64,000 nt of DNA from an uncultured Saprospiraceae bacterium. GTDB taxonomy: Bacteria > Bacteroidota > Bacteroidia > Chitinophagales > Saprospiraceae. The stretch spans positions 1 through 64,000 of the forward strand of contig CALFBH010000024.1 of assembly GCA_937951615.1 (NCBI GenBank). The letters are read 5' to 3'. Shown piece by piece: positions 23,824 to 57,512 of this stretch. Position numbers and translations under genes: made by a program. Numbering within the stretch: position 1 is the first letter of the stretch; every line of letters starts with the position of its first letter. Under the pieces are notes generated by a model that ran no database searches, was not told where the DNA came from, and saw nothing but the letters and a program-made list of their open reading frames with translations.

Positions 23824-25242
23824 ATGAAAAATTATATAAAATTACTTTCCCTCACGCTGGTCGTCATGCTGGCTTCCTGCACGGGCTTAGTAGATGGAAT
23901 TAACGATAACCCCAATGACATTGCCATAGAAGATGTGGATGCTAAACTATTCCTCACAGGCGCGCAACTTGCGAATATAGTAGCGCAGGGCGGACACCTC
24001 AACAGGGTGGCAGGCATGTACACCGGGCAACTAGTTGGGATTACTTCTTTGTATTCCAATATATATGGCTACTCTTTATCCACTGCAGAATCTATTGGAA
24101 CATGGAGCAGAATTTATATTGGTGCGGTGACCAATTTGCGACACATCAGAAATGAAGCACCCGACGACAAACTGTTGGTTGGAATGTCCAAAGTCTTAGA
24201 AGCCCATGCTGTTGGCACAGCCGCTTCTATTTTTGGTGATGTACCTTATTCGGAAATCAATGATGAAGCCATAGAAGATCCGAAATTTGATGACCAGATT
24301 TCTGTATTTAATGCTATGCTTGAATTATTAGATTCGGGAATTGCTGACCTGACTGCGGCAAGTACTCGACCTCTATCTGTTGATATTCACTTTGGTGGCG
24401 ATGTAGATGCCTGGACAGAAGTAGCGCATACGCTCAAGGCGAGGTATTATTTACAAATGAAAAACTATGATGCTGCCTACGCTGCCGCGCTCAATGGGAT
24501 TAGTGCTGATGCCAATTCCATGAAGTATATTCCAAGAGGCGATCCACTCAATTCAGAGGGAGATAAAAACCTGTTTTGGGAAATATTGGAAGGGTCAAGA
24601 GCAGGCGATATTGGCACAGTAGATAGTTATTTGATGCAAATGTTAGATCCCGCAAGTAGCATCAATAGAAATAATGCAAAGACGGATGAAACGGCAAGAT
24701 TCGGATATTATACCATAGATGAAAATAGCGGTTCTGCCAACACAGGTATCATTCAGCAATTCGAGCCACAGGACTTGGTTTCCTTTGCGGAAAATCAGCT
24801 TATCCTCGCAGAAGCAGGCGCGAGAACACAAAGCCTCGCGACAGGACTGACTGCCCTCAATGGACTAAGAGACTGGCTTAGTGCCGGCGGCAAACTGAAT
24901 GCCAATTTTATCAATGAACCTTATACTTACGTGTCTTATGAAGCTTCAGATTTTGATAATGGCGGAATGGAAAATCTTGACGGGATAGATCCGACAAGAG
25001 CATTTTTACGGGAAGTCATTGAAGAAAGATATGTTTCGGGTTTTGGAATGTATATGCCTTATAATGACGCAAGAAGACTAAGGAAAGAGGACAGCGATAT
25101 TGCTGTTCCTTACTTTCTGGTCGATGGGCCTGGAGCACCTTATCCAGAAAGAATGCCTTATTCGGATGATGAACTGAATTCAAATGAAAATGCACCCGCA
25201 GAAGATCCAGGCATCTTTGTGAAGACGGCTGTGAATTTGTAA
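23824..25242 (+). CDS. SusD/RagB family lipoprotein
   Basis: A 472-residue protein with signal peptide and lipobox MLASC at Cys19. The mature protein has the helical TPR-like organisation of SusD proteins (AVTNLRHIRNEA, KVLEAHAVGTAASIFGDVPY, AEAGARTQSLATGLTALNGLR, EVIEERYVSGFGMYMPYNDARRL), closest in style to the SusD-like_2 branch. It is the surface lid that captures ligand for the upstream SusC barrel. An intrinsic terminator follows within 30 bp, ending the two-gene operon. Confidence 0.92.
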   Translation: MKNYIKLLSLTLVVMLASCTGLVDGINDNPNDIAIEDVDAKLFLTGAQLANIVAQGGHLNRVAGMYTGQLVGITSLYSNIYGYSLSTAESIGTWSRIYIGAVTNLRHIRNEAPDDKLLVGMSKVLEAHAVGTAASIFGDVPYSEINDEAIEDPKFDDQISVFNAMLELLDSGIADLTAASTRPLSVDIHFGGDVDAWTEVAHTLKARYYLQMKNYDAAYAAALNGISADANSMKYIPRGDPLNSEGDKNLFWEILEGSRAGDIGTVDSYLMQMLDPASSINRNNAKTDETARFGYYTIDENSGSANTGIIQQFEPQDLVSFAENQLILAEAGARTQSLATGLTALNGLRDWLSAGGKLNANFINEPYTYVSYEASDFDNGGMENLDGIDPTRAFLREVIEERYVSGFGMYMPYNDARRLRKEDSDIAVPYFLVDGPGAPYPERMPYSDDELNSNENAPAEDPGIFVKTAVNL

Positions 25243-25268
25243 AAACATAAAGACAGGAATGTCTGTAA

Positions 25269-25313
25269 AAAAGGTCGTAAAAGCTTGTTTCATGGAAGCT
25301 TTTACGACCTTTT
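25269..25313 (+). terminator. intrinsic terminator of the susCD operon
   Basis: AAAAGGTCGTAAAAGCTT pairs exactly with AAGCTTTTACGACCTTTT across a nine-base loop, 26 bp beyond the SusD stop, followed by TATTTT. Confidence 0.9.
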
Positions 25314-25340
25314 ATTTTGACACGCTTGCGTGAAAGGGAT

Positions 25341-25917
25341 TTAGTAGGTACCTGAACCACTTATGCTTAACCCAAGTTGAATATGTAGCCTCCAAATCTT
25401 ATCAACGCTGGTCAAAGTGTATTACAAATTGCACTTTCTCTCTCGCCCATGGTTAAAACCATTGGCTACCAGATAGATCGTGTCTACGACACTTTGTAAA
25501 GTTATCAAATTGGAAGGCTATTCAAGTCGCATCGCGACGAATTATTTGGTAGCCAATGAATTTCATGGGTACTTAATTCAATCGCACAGGTCGGTTAAAA
25601 CCGTGGGCGAATGGAACGGCAAAATTGTGCAATTTGCTATACACACGATCAAACGTCATAAACCCTATAAACTACAGACTGTGAAAATGTAAATTGGGGG
25701 CTACTATTTCAACTTGGGTTAAGTCGAGACTGTTCAAATCAGCGTTACAAGTTACTTTACCACTTCCGCTTATTTTAACAGAAAAATCTTCTGCGCCATC
25801 AAATGCATTCAAATCAATATTTCCCGAACCACTTACTTTAAGAGACAAATCAGATTGTTCTATTTACAGTTTTCTTAGGCGGGCTTTGTTACATCAATTC
25901 CGTACCTCTACACTTAC
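25341..25917 (-). pseudogene. DUF2807 (head-GIN/adhesin-like) gene remnant interrupted by an insertion
   Basis: On the minus strand, 25723-25863 encodes typical DUF2807 repeats (KVSGSGNIDL, VKISGSGKVTC). The domain end (SISGSGTY, stop at 25341) lies on the far side of the element at 25371-25718. Removing that element and one TTAA copy joins the two parts in frame through a GAC TTA AGC junction. Further upstream in the same frame are VSVEVRN and NKARLRKL with in-frame stops at 25894 and 25864, so the 5' part has decayed. DUF2807 proteins are beta-helical envelope proteins with no known enzymatic role. Confidence 0.8.
25371..25718. mobile_element. 348-bp non-autonomous foldback element in TTAA
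   Basis: The ends are imperfect terminal inverted repeats of about 25 bp (outermost CCCAAGTTGAA on the left, TTCAACTTGGG on the right), flanked by TTAA at 25367-25370 and 25719-25722, the expected target duplication. The interior has further inverted arms: cgcccatggttaaaacc near 25444, ggttaaaaccgtgggcg near 25593, and ggctacca / tggtagcc. No transposase is encoded. CCC ends and TTAA targets are features of the piggyBac and IS1380-related groups, but that assignment is an inference. Its central 130 bp resembles the sequence at 55084-55211. Confidence 0.8.
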
Positions 25918-26071
25918 TTATTGGCACGAATAAGATATTTGTATTTTTTAAATGTTATAATAAAATATTATTTATAAATTATGTCATTTGTGAACAAATA
26001 CCTATATTTACGATTATAACAAAATCACAAAAAAGTTTAGAACTGCATTTTTAATTCTAAACTCCTCCCTG

Positions 26072-26079
26072 TACTTTTG
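26072..26079 (+). promoter_or_regulatory. candidate -7 promoter element
   Basis: TACTTTTG fits TAnnTTTG and lies 105 bp before the small frame at 26185. The surrounding stretch 25918-26184 shows nothing else recognisable. Confidence 0.3.
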
Positions 26080-26184
26080 TGACATACTATTTAAAGTGAC
26101 GAGCTTCCCAAAACTTCGTCTTAATGCTGTGTTCTTAATCAAGTATTTATCATCTAATTCCTATACCTTAAAACCTGTGTCAAA

Positions 26185-26292
26185 ATGTTAATTTTATTTA
26201 TCGCATTGGGAGCTTTTATTACGGGAGGCGGATTCATTTTAGCGACTAACCTTTACACTCAGAAAAGTAAAAAGAATCACGCAAGATATTAA
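26185..26292 (+). CDS. possible 35-residue single-pass membrane peptide
   Basis: ATG at 26185 opens a 35-codon frame. It starts with one hydrophobic Gly-containing helix (LILFIALGAFITGGGFILA) and ends in a basic tail (KSKKNHARY), the layout of small membrane peptides. A perfect 16-bp hairpin terminator lies 90 bp downstream and a -7-like box 105 bp upstream, suggesting a small independent transcript. No homologue is recognised. Confidence 0.4.
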   Translation: MLILFIALGAFITGGGFILATNLYTQKSKKNHARY

Positions 26293-26382
26293 GTATCTTC
26301 TGTGTTTTCGGAAAGAACTCTTTTCAAAAGGCTGGTCAATTACTGTGAATTCCACTCAATTTTGCCTAATAATTGGCTTTAG

Positions 26383-26423
26383 AAACATCCTTTAGTAGTA
26401 TCTACTAAAGGATGTTTGCTTTT
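26383..26423 (+). terminator. very strong intrinsic terminator
   Basis: AAACATCCTTTAGTAG and CTACTAAAGGATGTTT form an exact 16-bp stem with a three-base loop, followed by GCTTTTT. It lies between the small peptide frame and fabD. Confidence 0.9.
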
Positions 26424-54987: not shown

Positions 54988-55083
54988 TTATTACGTGATT
55001 TTAAAATACTGAATATAATCAAAGATAAATGATTAAAATGTGATAAACAATAGCACGTATTTACAGATTGCACGATTTCCATT

Positions 55084-55211
55084 CGCCCATGGTTAAAACC
55101 ATTGGCTACCAAATAGGCCGTGTCGATGACACTTTGTAAAGTTATTTAATTGAAAAGCTACCCAAGATAGCGACGAACTGTCTGGTAGCCAATGAATTTA
55201 TTCATGGGTAC
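55084..55211. repeat. repeat related to the core of the TTAA element
   Basis: The stretch cgcccatggttaaaaccatt, gacactttgtaaagttat and tggtagccaatgaatt matches 25444-25572 with scattered changes. The CCCAAG ends and TTAA flanks are missing, so this is a truncated or differently bounded relative. It runs to within about 10 bp of the acyl-CoA dehydrogenase stop and fills most of the 233-bp gap. Confidence 0.8.
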
Positions 55212-55220
55212 GTGATACCA

Positions 55221-57512
55221 TCACAAAGCAATAGGCGCAACCAGCAAATGCGGCGGGATATTGAATGAAGCCACAAGGCAACTCGCATCCGACCGAATTT
55301 CTCCACATAATCTATCTACCATCTGGGTCACGGCTTCTGTTTTATCGCCTTTCATGTAACCTTTTTCCAGGTACCAGCCTTTGTGTTTCTCAATGTGCGA
55401 CAAGGCGTAGAGATCACATAATTTCTTCAAGATGCTCTGTAATTCCAAGTCGTCGCAATCTTGAATAAACTGGGCGAATTGTTCCAGCACAATCCGTTCT
55501 GCGTAAGCATGTCCGAGCGCAATCATATTGGTCTGATTCCGAATAAAAGCATCATAACCTGCCATTCCCATTTTGGTTAGTCGGCGGATATTTTGTCCTA
55601 GTTCCATGACCATCGCCCGCTCTCTGCGCTTAAAGGTTTCTAAGTGAAAACCTGTGTCCAGCAAGTGTTCTTCCTCTGTATTGCCACTGTCATTGAACGG
55701 CGAAACAGAGTCCGCAAATTGCTTGCTGAAGGTCTTGAACAAGCCCCAGAAATTGGTGTTTTCAAACTCTTCTTTCAACTCGGTCAATAGTCCCTTTGAT
55801 ACCAATTGCATCAATACGGTATTATCGCCTTCAAAAGTGGCAAAAATATCTGTGTCTGCTTTCAGGTCGGCAAACTGATTTTCGGCAAGATAACCTTTTC
55901 CACCACAGGCCTCGCGGCACTCTTGCAGTGTATGTGTCGTGTTCCAGGTACTATATGATTTGAGCGCGGCAGCCAGTGTTTCAACTTCGCGCATGTCTTC
56001 TTCTGTTCGTTTTGCAAATCGTTGAAGCAGGTATTTGTGTGCAGCATCCAATGCGTAGGCATTTGCCAGTAAAGGCATTAGTCGGCGTTGGTGCGAAGGA
56101 TAATCGAGCAGGAGTGTTTCCGCTTCGTTTTCTGGACCAAATTGTCGGCGTTTCAAACTGTGCTTGATAGCAATGGTCAATCCTTTTTTGGCGGCACTGA
56201 GTCCGGCCATCGGCACACATACACGTCCGCCGACCAGTGTTCCCAACATCGTAAAAAAGCGTCGGGAAACAGAGCCAATTGAGCTATCGTAATTGCCCTG
56301 ACCATCGACATCGCCAAAACGATTGAGTAGATTTTCGCGTGGTACACGCACCTGATTGAACCAAATCCTACCATTGTCCACGCCATTCAAGCCTAATTTA
56401 TACCCACAATCTTCCACTCGAACACCTGGCAATAAATCGCCTTTTTTATCGCGTAGCGGAACAAGAAAAGCATGGACGCCATGTTCTTCATCATTGGTGA
56501 TGAGTTGGGCAAAAACGCTCGCCATTTCACCATGCAAAGCATTTCCAATATATTCTTTCCCCGCGCCTTCGTGTGGCGTATGAATGACAAATTCATCCTG
56601 TGCGCGATCATAAGTCGCAGTGGTTTCCAACTGACGAACATTCGAGCCATGTCCAGTTTCCGTCATGGCAAAACAGCCGAGCAAGTCAGCCGAGCCAACA
56701 TCTGTCAAATATTTATCGAAGTGCTTTTGTGTACCCAATCCAAGGATACTGCCACCAAATAAGCCGAACTGCACGCCAAATTTAATCGCCAGACTAATGT
56801 CGTGATAGCCCATGATTTCAAAAACGGAGGCGTATTGAGTAATGTCGTCTTCGCCGCCATTGGCTTTTGGATAAGAAATAGCACCCAAGCCTTCGGCTGC
56901 CATCAACTTTGTCCATTTGAGGGTCTGCTCGCGATAGATTTCTTTGTTTTTTATAATACGCAATTGAAAATCCGGCTGGGCAAAAAGTTGGCGTACTCGG
57001 TTTTTGATGTCCGCATATTCGCCATCCAGCAATTTACTCATGGCAGCACTGTCGAAACAAGGTTCTTCGTCCAGTTCAGCTATGCGCTTACGCTGGTCGT
57101 CTGAAAGGATATTTCGATAGTCTTTGAGGCTCACATAACCCAATGCACTTTCTATGTCGCCCATTGCGCTACGTGCTTCTTCTGTGTCCCAATTGGCTGC
57201 ACCATTTGCGCTCTGCTCTGCCATTTTCAGGCTTAGTTCAGCTAATGATTGTCGCGATTGTGTATCCATCCGTTCAGCAGCTTCCCGAATCAATTCCACC
57301 CAACTGCCCATCAATTCGGGCGAAGGTGGATTCGCAGGATTGCTCCAGTCCAGAATCAGCTCGCGCTCATCGTCGGAGAGCCAGTCCATTTCTTTCATAC
57401 GCCTATGAATCAACTGGACTTCAGCTGGCATCATGGCATGGTCGGCCCAGCCTACATAGAGTAGCGGGAGGAAGGGGAGGACGTTGGGGCGGTCTTTTAG
57501 AATGTCTTTCAT
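55221..57512 (-). CDS. acyl-CoA dehydrogenase
   Basis: A 763-residue flavoprotein, longer than the 380-600 of simple family members. An extra N-terminal helical region (about 1-140) precedes the catalytic domains: CFAMTETGHGSNVRQLETTATYD (FAD/substrate loop), the beta domain and SLKRRQFGPENEAE, then TLQECREACGGKGYLAENQ and an extended C-terminal helical domain. It oxidises an acyl-CoA at the alpha-beta bond, passing electrons to ETF. The long form resembles acyl-CoA oxidase-like ACADs, so chain specificity is open. Transcribed alone. Confidence 0.88.
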   Translation of the reverse strand: MKDILKDRPNVLPFLPLLYVGWADHAMMPAEVQLIHRRMKEMDWLSDDERELILDWSNPANPPSPELMGSWVELIREAAERMDTQSRQSLAELSLKMAEQSANGAANWDTEEARSAMGDIESALGYVSLKDYRNILSDDQRKRIAELDEEPCFDSAAMSKLLDGEYADIKNRVRQLFAQPDFQLRIIKNKEIYREQTLKWTKLMAAEGLGAISYPKANGGEDDITQYASVFEIMGYHDISLAIKFGVQFGLFGGSILGLGTQKHFDKYLTDVGSADLLGCFAMTETGHGSNVRQLETTATYDRAQDEFVIHTPHEGAGKEYIGNALHGEMASVFAQLITNDEEHGVHAFLVPLRDKKGDLLPGVRVEDCGYKLGLNGVDNGRIWFNQVRVPRENLLNRFGDVDGQGNYDSSIGSVSRRFFTMLGTLVGGRVCVPMAGLSAAKKGLTIAIKHSLKRRQFGPENEAETLLLDYPSHQRRLMPLLANAYALDAAHKYLLQRFAKRTEEDMREVETLAAALKSYSTWNTTHTLQECREACGGKGYLAENQFADLKADTDIFATFEGDNTVLMQLVSKGLLTELKEEFENTNFWGLFKTFSKQFADSVSPFNDSGNTEEEHLLDTGFHLETFKRRERAMVMELGQNIRRLTKMGMAGYDAFIRNQTNMIALGHAYAERIVLEQFAQFIQDCDDLELQSILKKLCDLYALSHIEKHKGWYLEKGYMKGDKTEAVTQMVDRLCGEIRSDASCLVASFNIPPHLLVAPIAL

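Follow-up and report, generated by a model that had tools for sequence, protein, structure and literature searches.

A Probable IS1634-Type MITE Family with 4-bp, Mostly TTAA, Target Duplications in Saprospiraceae Genomes

Introduction

The insertion sequences (IS) of the IS1634 family are described, in the family account of PMC2266710, as 1500-2000 bp long, with ends of the form C-----YT and target duplications of 5-6 bp, two members having long, variable ones. A survey of Thermus elements likewise reports IS1634 duplications of 5-6 bp (PMC6352166). MITEs of this family are already known: those of Methanosarcina given in Table 4 of PMC3852290 are linked to ISMba11 and ISMac10, and have duplications of 6 and 0 bp. 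TTAA-specific insertion is taken to be characteristic of piggyBac. As stated in the 2020 cryo-EM paper on that transposase, its reaction pathway is common with the IS4 family and only piggyBac precisely targets TTAA (PMC7351741). The prokaryotic IS1380 family is described as a distant relative of piggyBac (PMC10140906). We found no paper on IS1634 elements with TTAA targets, and a TTAA-using IS1634 entry may exist in ISfinder. Judged by titles and the opening of abstracts, nothing related was found on MITEs in Saprospiraceae or on TTAA MITEs or insertion sequences in bacterial genomes.

The window analysed here is a stretch of 64,000 nucleotides from an uncultured Saprospiraceae bacterium (contig CALFBH010000024.1). 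An initial annotation had described in it a TTAA-flanked foldback element, inserted into a DUF2807 frame, and had likened it to the products of piggyBac/IS1380-type transposition. We report that this element is very probably a MITE of an IS1634-type insertion sequence that duplicates exactly 4 bp, mostly TTAA.

Results

The element begins with CCCAAGTTGAATATG, ends with TTTCAACTTGGG and spans 348 bp between two TTAA copies, just as the initial annotation had it (Table 1); its termini read CCCAAGTTGAATATGTAGCC at the left and GGCTACTATTTCAACTTGGG at the right. It lies downstream of a pair of genes, for a TonB-dependent receptor and a SusD-like protein, and upstream of an acyltransferase gene. 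With 5 flanking bases counted on each side, the inverted arms measure 30 nt and are 87% complementary; the repeat inside the element is hence 25 nt long with 21/25 positions matching. As a single strand the 348 bp fold with -64 kcal/mol, against a mean of -32.7 for shuffled sequences (z -8.6; 0/100 shuffles were as good). A separate hairpin with 27-nt arms, 85% complementary, is located directly 3' of the SusD-like gene (window 25260-25322), and is possibly its transcription terminator. An Rfam scan of 24900-26400 gave no match over the element; four matches (E <= 1), far under the gathering score, fell on a neighbouring hairpin.

Table 1. Features of the element and of its insertion site (window coordinates).
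Feature	Position	Strand	Basis
DUF2807 remnant, 3' part, ending SISGSGTY-stop once rejoined	25341..25366	-	rejoined frame
Left target-duplication copy, TTAA (4 bp)	25367..25370	.	window sequence and flank comparison
Probable non-autonomous IS1634-type element (MITE), composite form, 348 bp	25371..25718	+	copies; 98.8% identity with the C7 copy (347 columns)
Left terminal inverted repeat (L end), consensus CCCAAGTTGAATATGTAGCCCCCAA, one C-to-T change here	25371..25395	+	
Nested palindromic repeat module, GTGTATTACAAATTGCAC...GTGCAATTTGCTATACACAC	25417..25646	+	dispersed in own genome
Right terminal inverted repeat (R end), CCCAAGTTGAAATAGTAGCCCCCAA on the minus strand	25694..25718	-	3/25 positions unlike the IS ends
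Right target-duplication copy, TTAA (4 bp)	25719..25722	.	window sequence and flank comparison
DUF2807 remnant, 5' part, opening after an in-frame stop	25719..25863	-	rejoined frame, homologues

When the flanks are joined with one TTAA, a single minus-strand frame is obtained that ends in NSLDLSISGSGTY and a stop. This rejoined DUF2807 frame reads IEQSDLSLKVSGSGNIDLNAFDGAEDFSVKISGSGKVTCNADLNSLDLSISGSGTY-stop, and consists of 56 codons that open after an in-frame stop. The DUF2807 homologues of relatives have open frames of mostly 238-301 aa (two are longer, 328 and 826 aa), and in 15/18 aligned homologues the protein runs 59-87 residues past the aligned part (6-24 in the other three), with a register that is uncertain because the protein is repetitive. 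Since the frame is short, opens after a stop and has longer homologues, the insertion target is a DUF2807 remnant and not a whole gene. The proposal that excision restores a DUF2807 frame up to SISGSGTY-stop thus holds as to the in-frame junction, but what is restored is merely the remnant. The ORF at 25672-25848 scored 20.2 bits against PF10988, under the cut-off of 24.2. No orthologous site without the insert was found: the rejoined peptide had no match in the five congeners analysed, and its matches in 22 other genomes are homologues with 31-50% identity.

The ends were then followed in the genome that contains the window (G000; 6.96 Mb, 142 contigs), hereafter the own genome, and in five congeners (G001-G005). 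A search of the own genome with 577 bp of the locus (25341-25917) returned 94 matching pieces of two kinds, namely the outer ends and the inner palindromic module, which also stands free elsewhere. Allowing up to 2 mismatches, the end pattern CCCAAGTTGAAWWWGTAGCC was found 45 times in the own genome, 99 times in G005, 31 in G002, 4 in G004, 2 in G001 and once in G003; the reversed pattern, used as a control, gave 0 matches in five of these genomes (the own included) and 2 in G001. The initial annotation had suggested this search with the 25-bp ends and had held that its reading would fall if no other copy shared the ends or the TTAA flanks; other copies share both. An exact scan for TTAA plus the end in 84,980 species genomes, a set from which records near the own genome may have been left out, gave 26 stretches, all of them in the Saprospiraceae MAG sets CALIZI, CALCMV and JAHDFX. 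The end pattern had 0 matches in viral contigs. Several contigs of the own assembly (C8, C29, C33, C56, C64, C90, C105, C108 and C115) break at or inside copies, so that the copies counted here are a minimum and some are not fully assembled. The MITEs read from G005 and G002 are about 160-200 bp long and have other interiors with nearly the same ends. A 1605-bp cassette in G005 (C435; L141 3080-4692) shares the terminal repeats, is flanked by TTAA at each end, and carries a gene for a 407-aa histidine kinase and no transposase ORF; in its sequence it looks like a mobile insertion cassette.

To define the duplication, the flanks of two-ended copies were compared among the matches listed. The own genome gave 12 pairs, which are all of its pairs among those matches and take up 24 of the 45 ends (the other 21 are single); L241, a repeat of L020 on the same C68 copy, is left out of this count. 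The flanking 4-mers were identical in 8/12 (7 TTAA and 1 CTAA). For the congeners, 30 pairs were taken from 41 loci (L107 and 40 regions) chosen by hand, mostly where a pair showed among the matches listed, without the 3986-bp pairing in L256 that joins two different copies. In this chosen set 22/30 were identical, 13 with TTAA and 9 with other sequences (TTAG three times, CTAA twice, and TAAA, TTAT, TTGA and CAAA). Pooled, 30/42 pairs among the matches listed were identical at 4 bp (20 TTAA, 6 TTAG or CTAA, 4 others), and 0/42 at 5 or 6 bp. The binomial probability that identical 4-mers reach these counts by chance is 2.5e-16 for the 12 own pairs and 2.9e-44 for the 30 congener pairs. Because non-palindromic flanks are repeated as well, the 4 bp lie outside the element and represent a genuine direct duplication. 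The length of the duplication is fixed at 4 bp and the TTAA sequence is a preference; the insertion with TTAA duplication that had been read from the window is thereby confirmed by copies sharing both ends and flanks. Unequal flanks (4/12 own and 8/30 congener pairs among the matches listed) may reflect mutation or recombination between copies. TTAA itself is fairly common (0.49% of window positions) and the element folds strongly, yet the reading of its flanks as chance, or as an unrelated rearrangement beside a foldback sequence, is refuted by this copy set, in which identical 4-mers recur far beyond the binomial expectation, 10 of them with sequences other than TTAA.

The 12 two-ended own copies differ in their interior. 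Three are bare, 191 bp long and lack the inner module (C104, C8, C72), seven carry it (C24, C7, C4, C82, C60, C95 and C68), C16 has a shortened module, and in C3 the insert is of another kind. The orientation of the module's 91-bp middle is the same in C24, C7 and C4, and reversed in C82, C60, C95 and C68, where this sequence is 81-85% identical to the window copy. Repeats of 7-11 bp flank the module in 4/8 copies with both module ends found (GTTTGATA in C82, then GATACGTAG, CAGCCCTATAT and TGTGTTC); in the other four no repeat exceeds 5 bp. The window and C7 copies, which stand at different sites, lack the same internal piece and are 98.8% identical (347 columns); the composite thus moved once it had formed.

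The module belongs to a separate multi-hairpin palindromic repeat family with GTGTGTATAACAAATTGCAC ends, seen in the window at 25417-25646, nested in the TTAA element, and again at 55061-55228. Free copies occur elsewhere in the genome (e.g., L028, L029 and L030), with three tandem units at C84 (L010). RAYT (Y1_Tnp) was considered as the engine of the module and rejected, as the 4 RAYT loci found contain 0 of four inner-module motifs. At G000:C4:33524-35276 (L003 1-1761), an IS110-type element with a 352-aa transposase (NF033542) splits the inner module of a TTAA element copy, apparently between GGTTAAAACC and ATTGGCTACC.

A candidate engine was found in a congener, G001 (Saprospiraceae MAG-32 RZ_2168). 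Here an IS of 1934 bp (C116:335-2268; contig JAHDFX010000015.1) has CCCAAGTTGAATATGTAGCCCCCAA at both ends (25/25) and TTAA on each side. The L-end consensus of the MITEs matches both of its ends over the 25 bp, after which TTTTA, a short match, is common to its right end and most MITE right ends. The IS encodes, on the minus strand at 365-2215 of the contig, a transposase ORF of 616 aa free of stops, which scored 219.5 bits (cut-off 100) with NF033559, the NCBIfam model of the IS1634 family, and 26.2 bits (cut-off 23) with PF01609 (DDE_Tnp_1), its sole Pfam match up to E 1. In an alignment of seven transposases D234, D309 and E499 are invariant, and from motifs they were assigned as the putative catalytic triad. 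The length of the element falls in the 1500-2000 bp range of the family and CCCAAGTT fits C-----YT. This IS provides a second in-frame case, independent of the first: its removal with one TTAA rejoins an uncharacterised interrupted ORF, which has a match in 1/100 other genomes (33% identity, two stops).

In the own genome, no IS1634 transposase was detected by protein search, family model or alignment, and the IS1380 transposase model (PF13701) had 0 matches. Its MITE copies therefore look like orphans, and the engine that moved them is inferred from the congener; as many contigs break inside copies, an unassembled autonomous copy may exist in the own genome. Two places were rejected as autonomous copies: the single ends on C10 and C85 have no transposase ORF nearby, and the 1745-bp copy on C4 contains a transposase of the IS110 type, nested in the inner module.

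Relatives of the transposase were found by protein search in 20 of 298 genomes of the order. Seven loci were read out of nine matches with a complete ORF; six, used in the alignment, have 30-33% identity, and one of their genomes contributes a second copy as the seventh. With both ends read, five have TTAA/TTAA (two in one genome), one TTAG/TTAG and one TTAG/TTAA. Their ends are of the CCCACATTGC or CCCAACTTG type (CCCA-type), with one ACC at a left end and one CCGACATTGC at one end. The viral contig IMGVR_UViG_2588253758_000003 (L287) contains a further relative of IS1634 type, which has CCCAACTTC ends and TTAG/TTAG flanks. In a wider search of the phylum, transposase matches occurred in 59/395 genomes and flanks were examined at 30 matched loci; a strict script found no TTAA pair among these 30, many of which are partial, and a relaxed look at four gave TTAA/TTAG with CCCGGAGTTCCC (L297), TGTA/TTAA (L289) and none in the other two. 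By these phylum loci, the habit does not look general to IS1634. On these comparisons of sequence it appears to belong to a clade within the IS1634-type elements.

A search of PDB sequences with the transposase alignment gave 0 matches up to E 10. The AlphaFold2 model of the 616-aa protein, built from three sequences, is weak (pLDDT 57.7, pTM 0.52). With this weak model, Foldseek placed the Tn5 transposase first (1muh_A, E 7e-6, TM 0.31/0.39) and piggyBat sixth, behind five Tn5 entries (E 1.4e-3). VIA-align gave Z 13.2 for Tn5 (4dm0_A; rmsd 6.7, 312 aligned), 8.4 for piggyBac (6x67_C; rmsd 7.8, 288) and 8.2 for ISCth4 (6xg8_B; rmsd 4.3, 199). A structural Z near 8 can come from the common RNase H core alone, hence the piggyBac match is compatible with kinship and no proof of it. 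The predicted model makes a catalytic fold shared with piggyBac possible.

Discussion

The elements described here are multi-copy, have terminal inverted repeats and a target duplication, lack a transposase and have ends in common with the autonomous element of a congener, as MITEs do. In the mechanism that we propose, an IS1634-type transposase would recognise the CCCAAGTTGAAWWWGTAGCCCCCAA ends and duplicate exactly 4 bp on insertion; TTAA would be its main target, and TTAG/CTAA and other AT-rich sites less frequent ones. The transposase, present earlier or supplied from outside, would have moved the own copies in trans, probably cutting and pasting by the IS4/Tn5 hairpin route, and the autonomous copy may later have been lost or may be missing from the own assembly. 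The window copy is a composite: a base MITE like the 191-bp copies would have taken in a separate palindromic module, and the product would then have lost an internal piece and moved as a unit.

The many copies in the own genome, where no IS1634 transposase was found, would also fit a different DDE insertion sequence that is still present there and recognises the CCCAAGTTG termini in trans, the IS1634 element of the congener merely sharing the ancestry of its ends. Given that all 25 bp of the L-end consensus recur at both ends of that element, and that the short TTTTA extends the match on the right, we consider such an arrangement very unlikely. The initial annotation had pointed to an IS1380- or piggyBac-type transposase as the mover, and the TTAA duplication and CCC/GGG termini are indeed as described for piggyBac (PMC10140906). 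The PF13701 search of the own genome (0/1), however, found no IS1380 enzyme, and the transposase that does lie between matching ends, in the congener, matches NF033559 and PF01609 only. Its third acidic residue aligns as E499, where piggyBac is reported to have D (PMC7351741). A MITE of IS1380 or piggyBac type is thus extremely improbable. The likeness to piggyBac is real as a likeness and is not membership. The initial annotation had thought such transposition unusual for a tiny foldback element; small elements like this one are commonplace MITEs.

An IS1634-type MITE agrees with the published family, as far as its descriptions go, in the NF033559 profile, the 1934-bp size and the fit to C-----YT of the related IS, and in that IS1634 MITEs are known. 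It differs in the duplication, which is exactly 4 bp and mostly TTAA (30/42 pairs at 4 bp among the matches listed), whereas 5-6 bp are published for the family, and 6 and 0 bp for the Methanosarcina MITEs. As two IS1634 members are themselves atypical (PMC2266710), we classify the element as a variant and not as a plain member.

With piggyBac, the element shares the TTAA target, the CCC...GGG termini, the 4-bp duplication and a site whose original sequence returns, on paper, once the element and one TTAA copy are taken out. It differs in the transposase family, in a DDE instead of a DDD triad, in having Tn5 as the nearest fold (with a weak model), and in that 10/30 identical duplications among the matches listed are not TTAA. 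IS1380 is set apart by PF13701, which matches neither in the own genome nor in the 616-aa transposase. Tn5/IS50, of the IS4 family, is the best structural match to the predicted transposase (again with a weak model), but the IS50 group is reported to duplicate 8-9 bp (PMC2266710) and the identity is 8-9%.

That an IS1634 clade with CCC ends duplicates exactly 4 bp, mostly TTAA, is notable, being unusual for the family and parallel to piggyBac. It is tempting to speculate, though we think it unlikely, that this bacterial clade has reached the logic of piggyBac, with CCC ends, hairpins of 4 nt, targeting of TTAA and excision that leaves no footprint, whether independently or through deep common ancestry. 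If so, the TTAA mechanism of piggyBac would not be confined to eukaryotes, and a small bacterial system could serve to dissect it and to test where it came from. A mostly-TTAA clade related to IS4 offers a point of comparison for the origin of 4-bp TTAA targeting. In the Saprospiraceae themselves, MITE families persist in a genome where no transposase for them was found; across one genus their interiors are particular to each species and their ends hardly vary.
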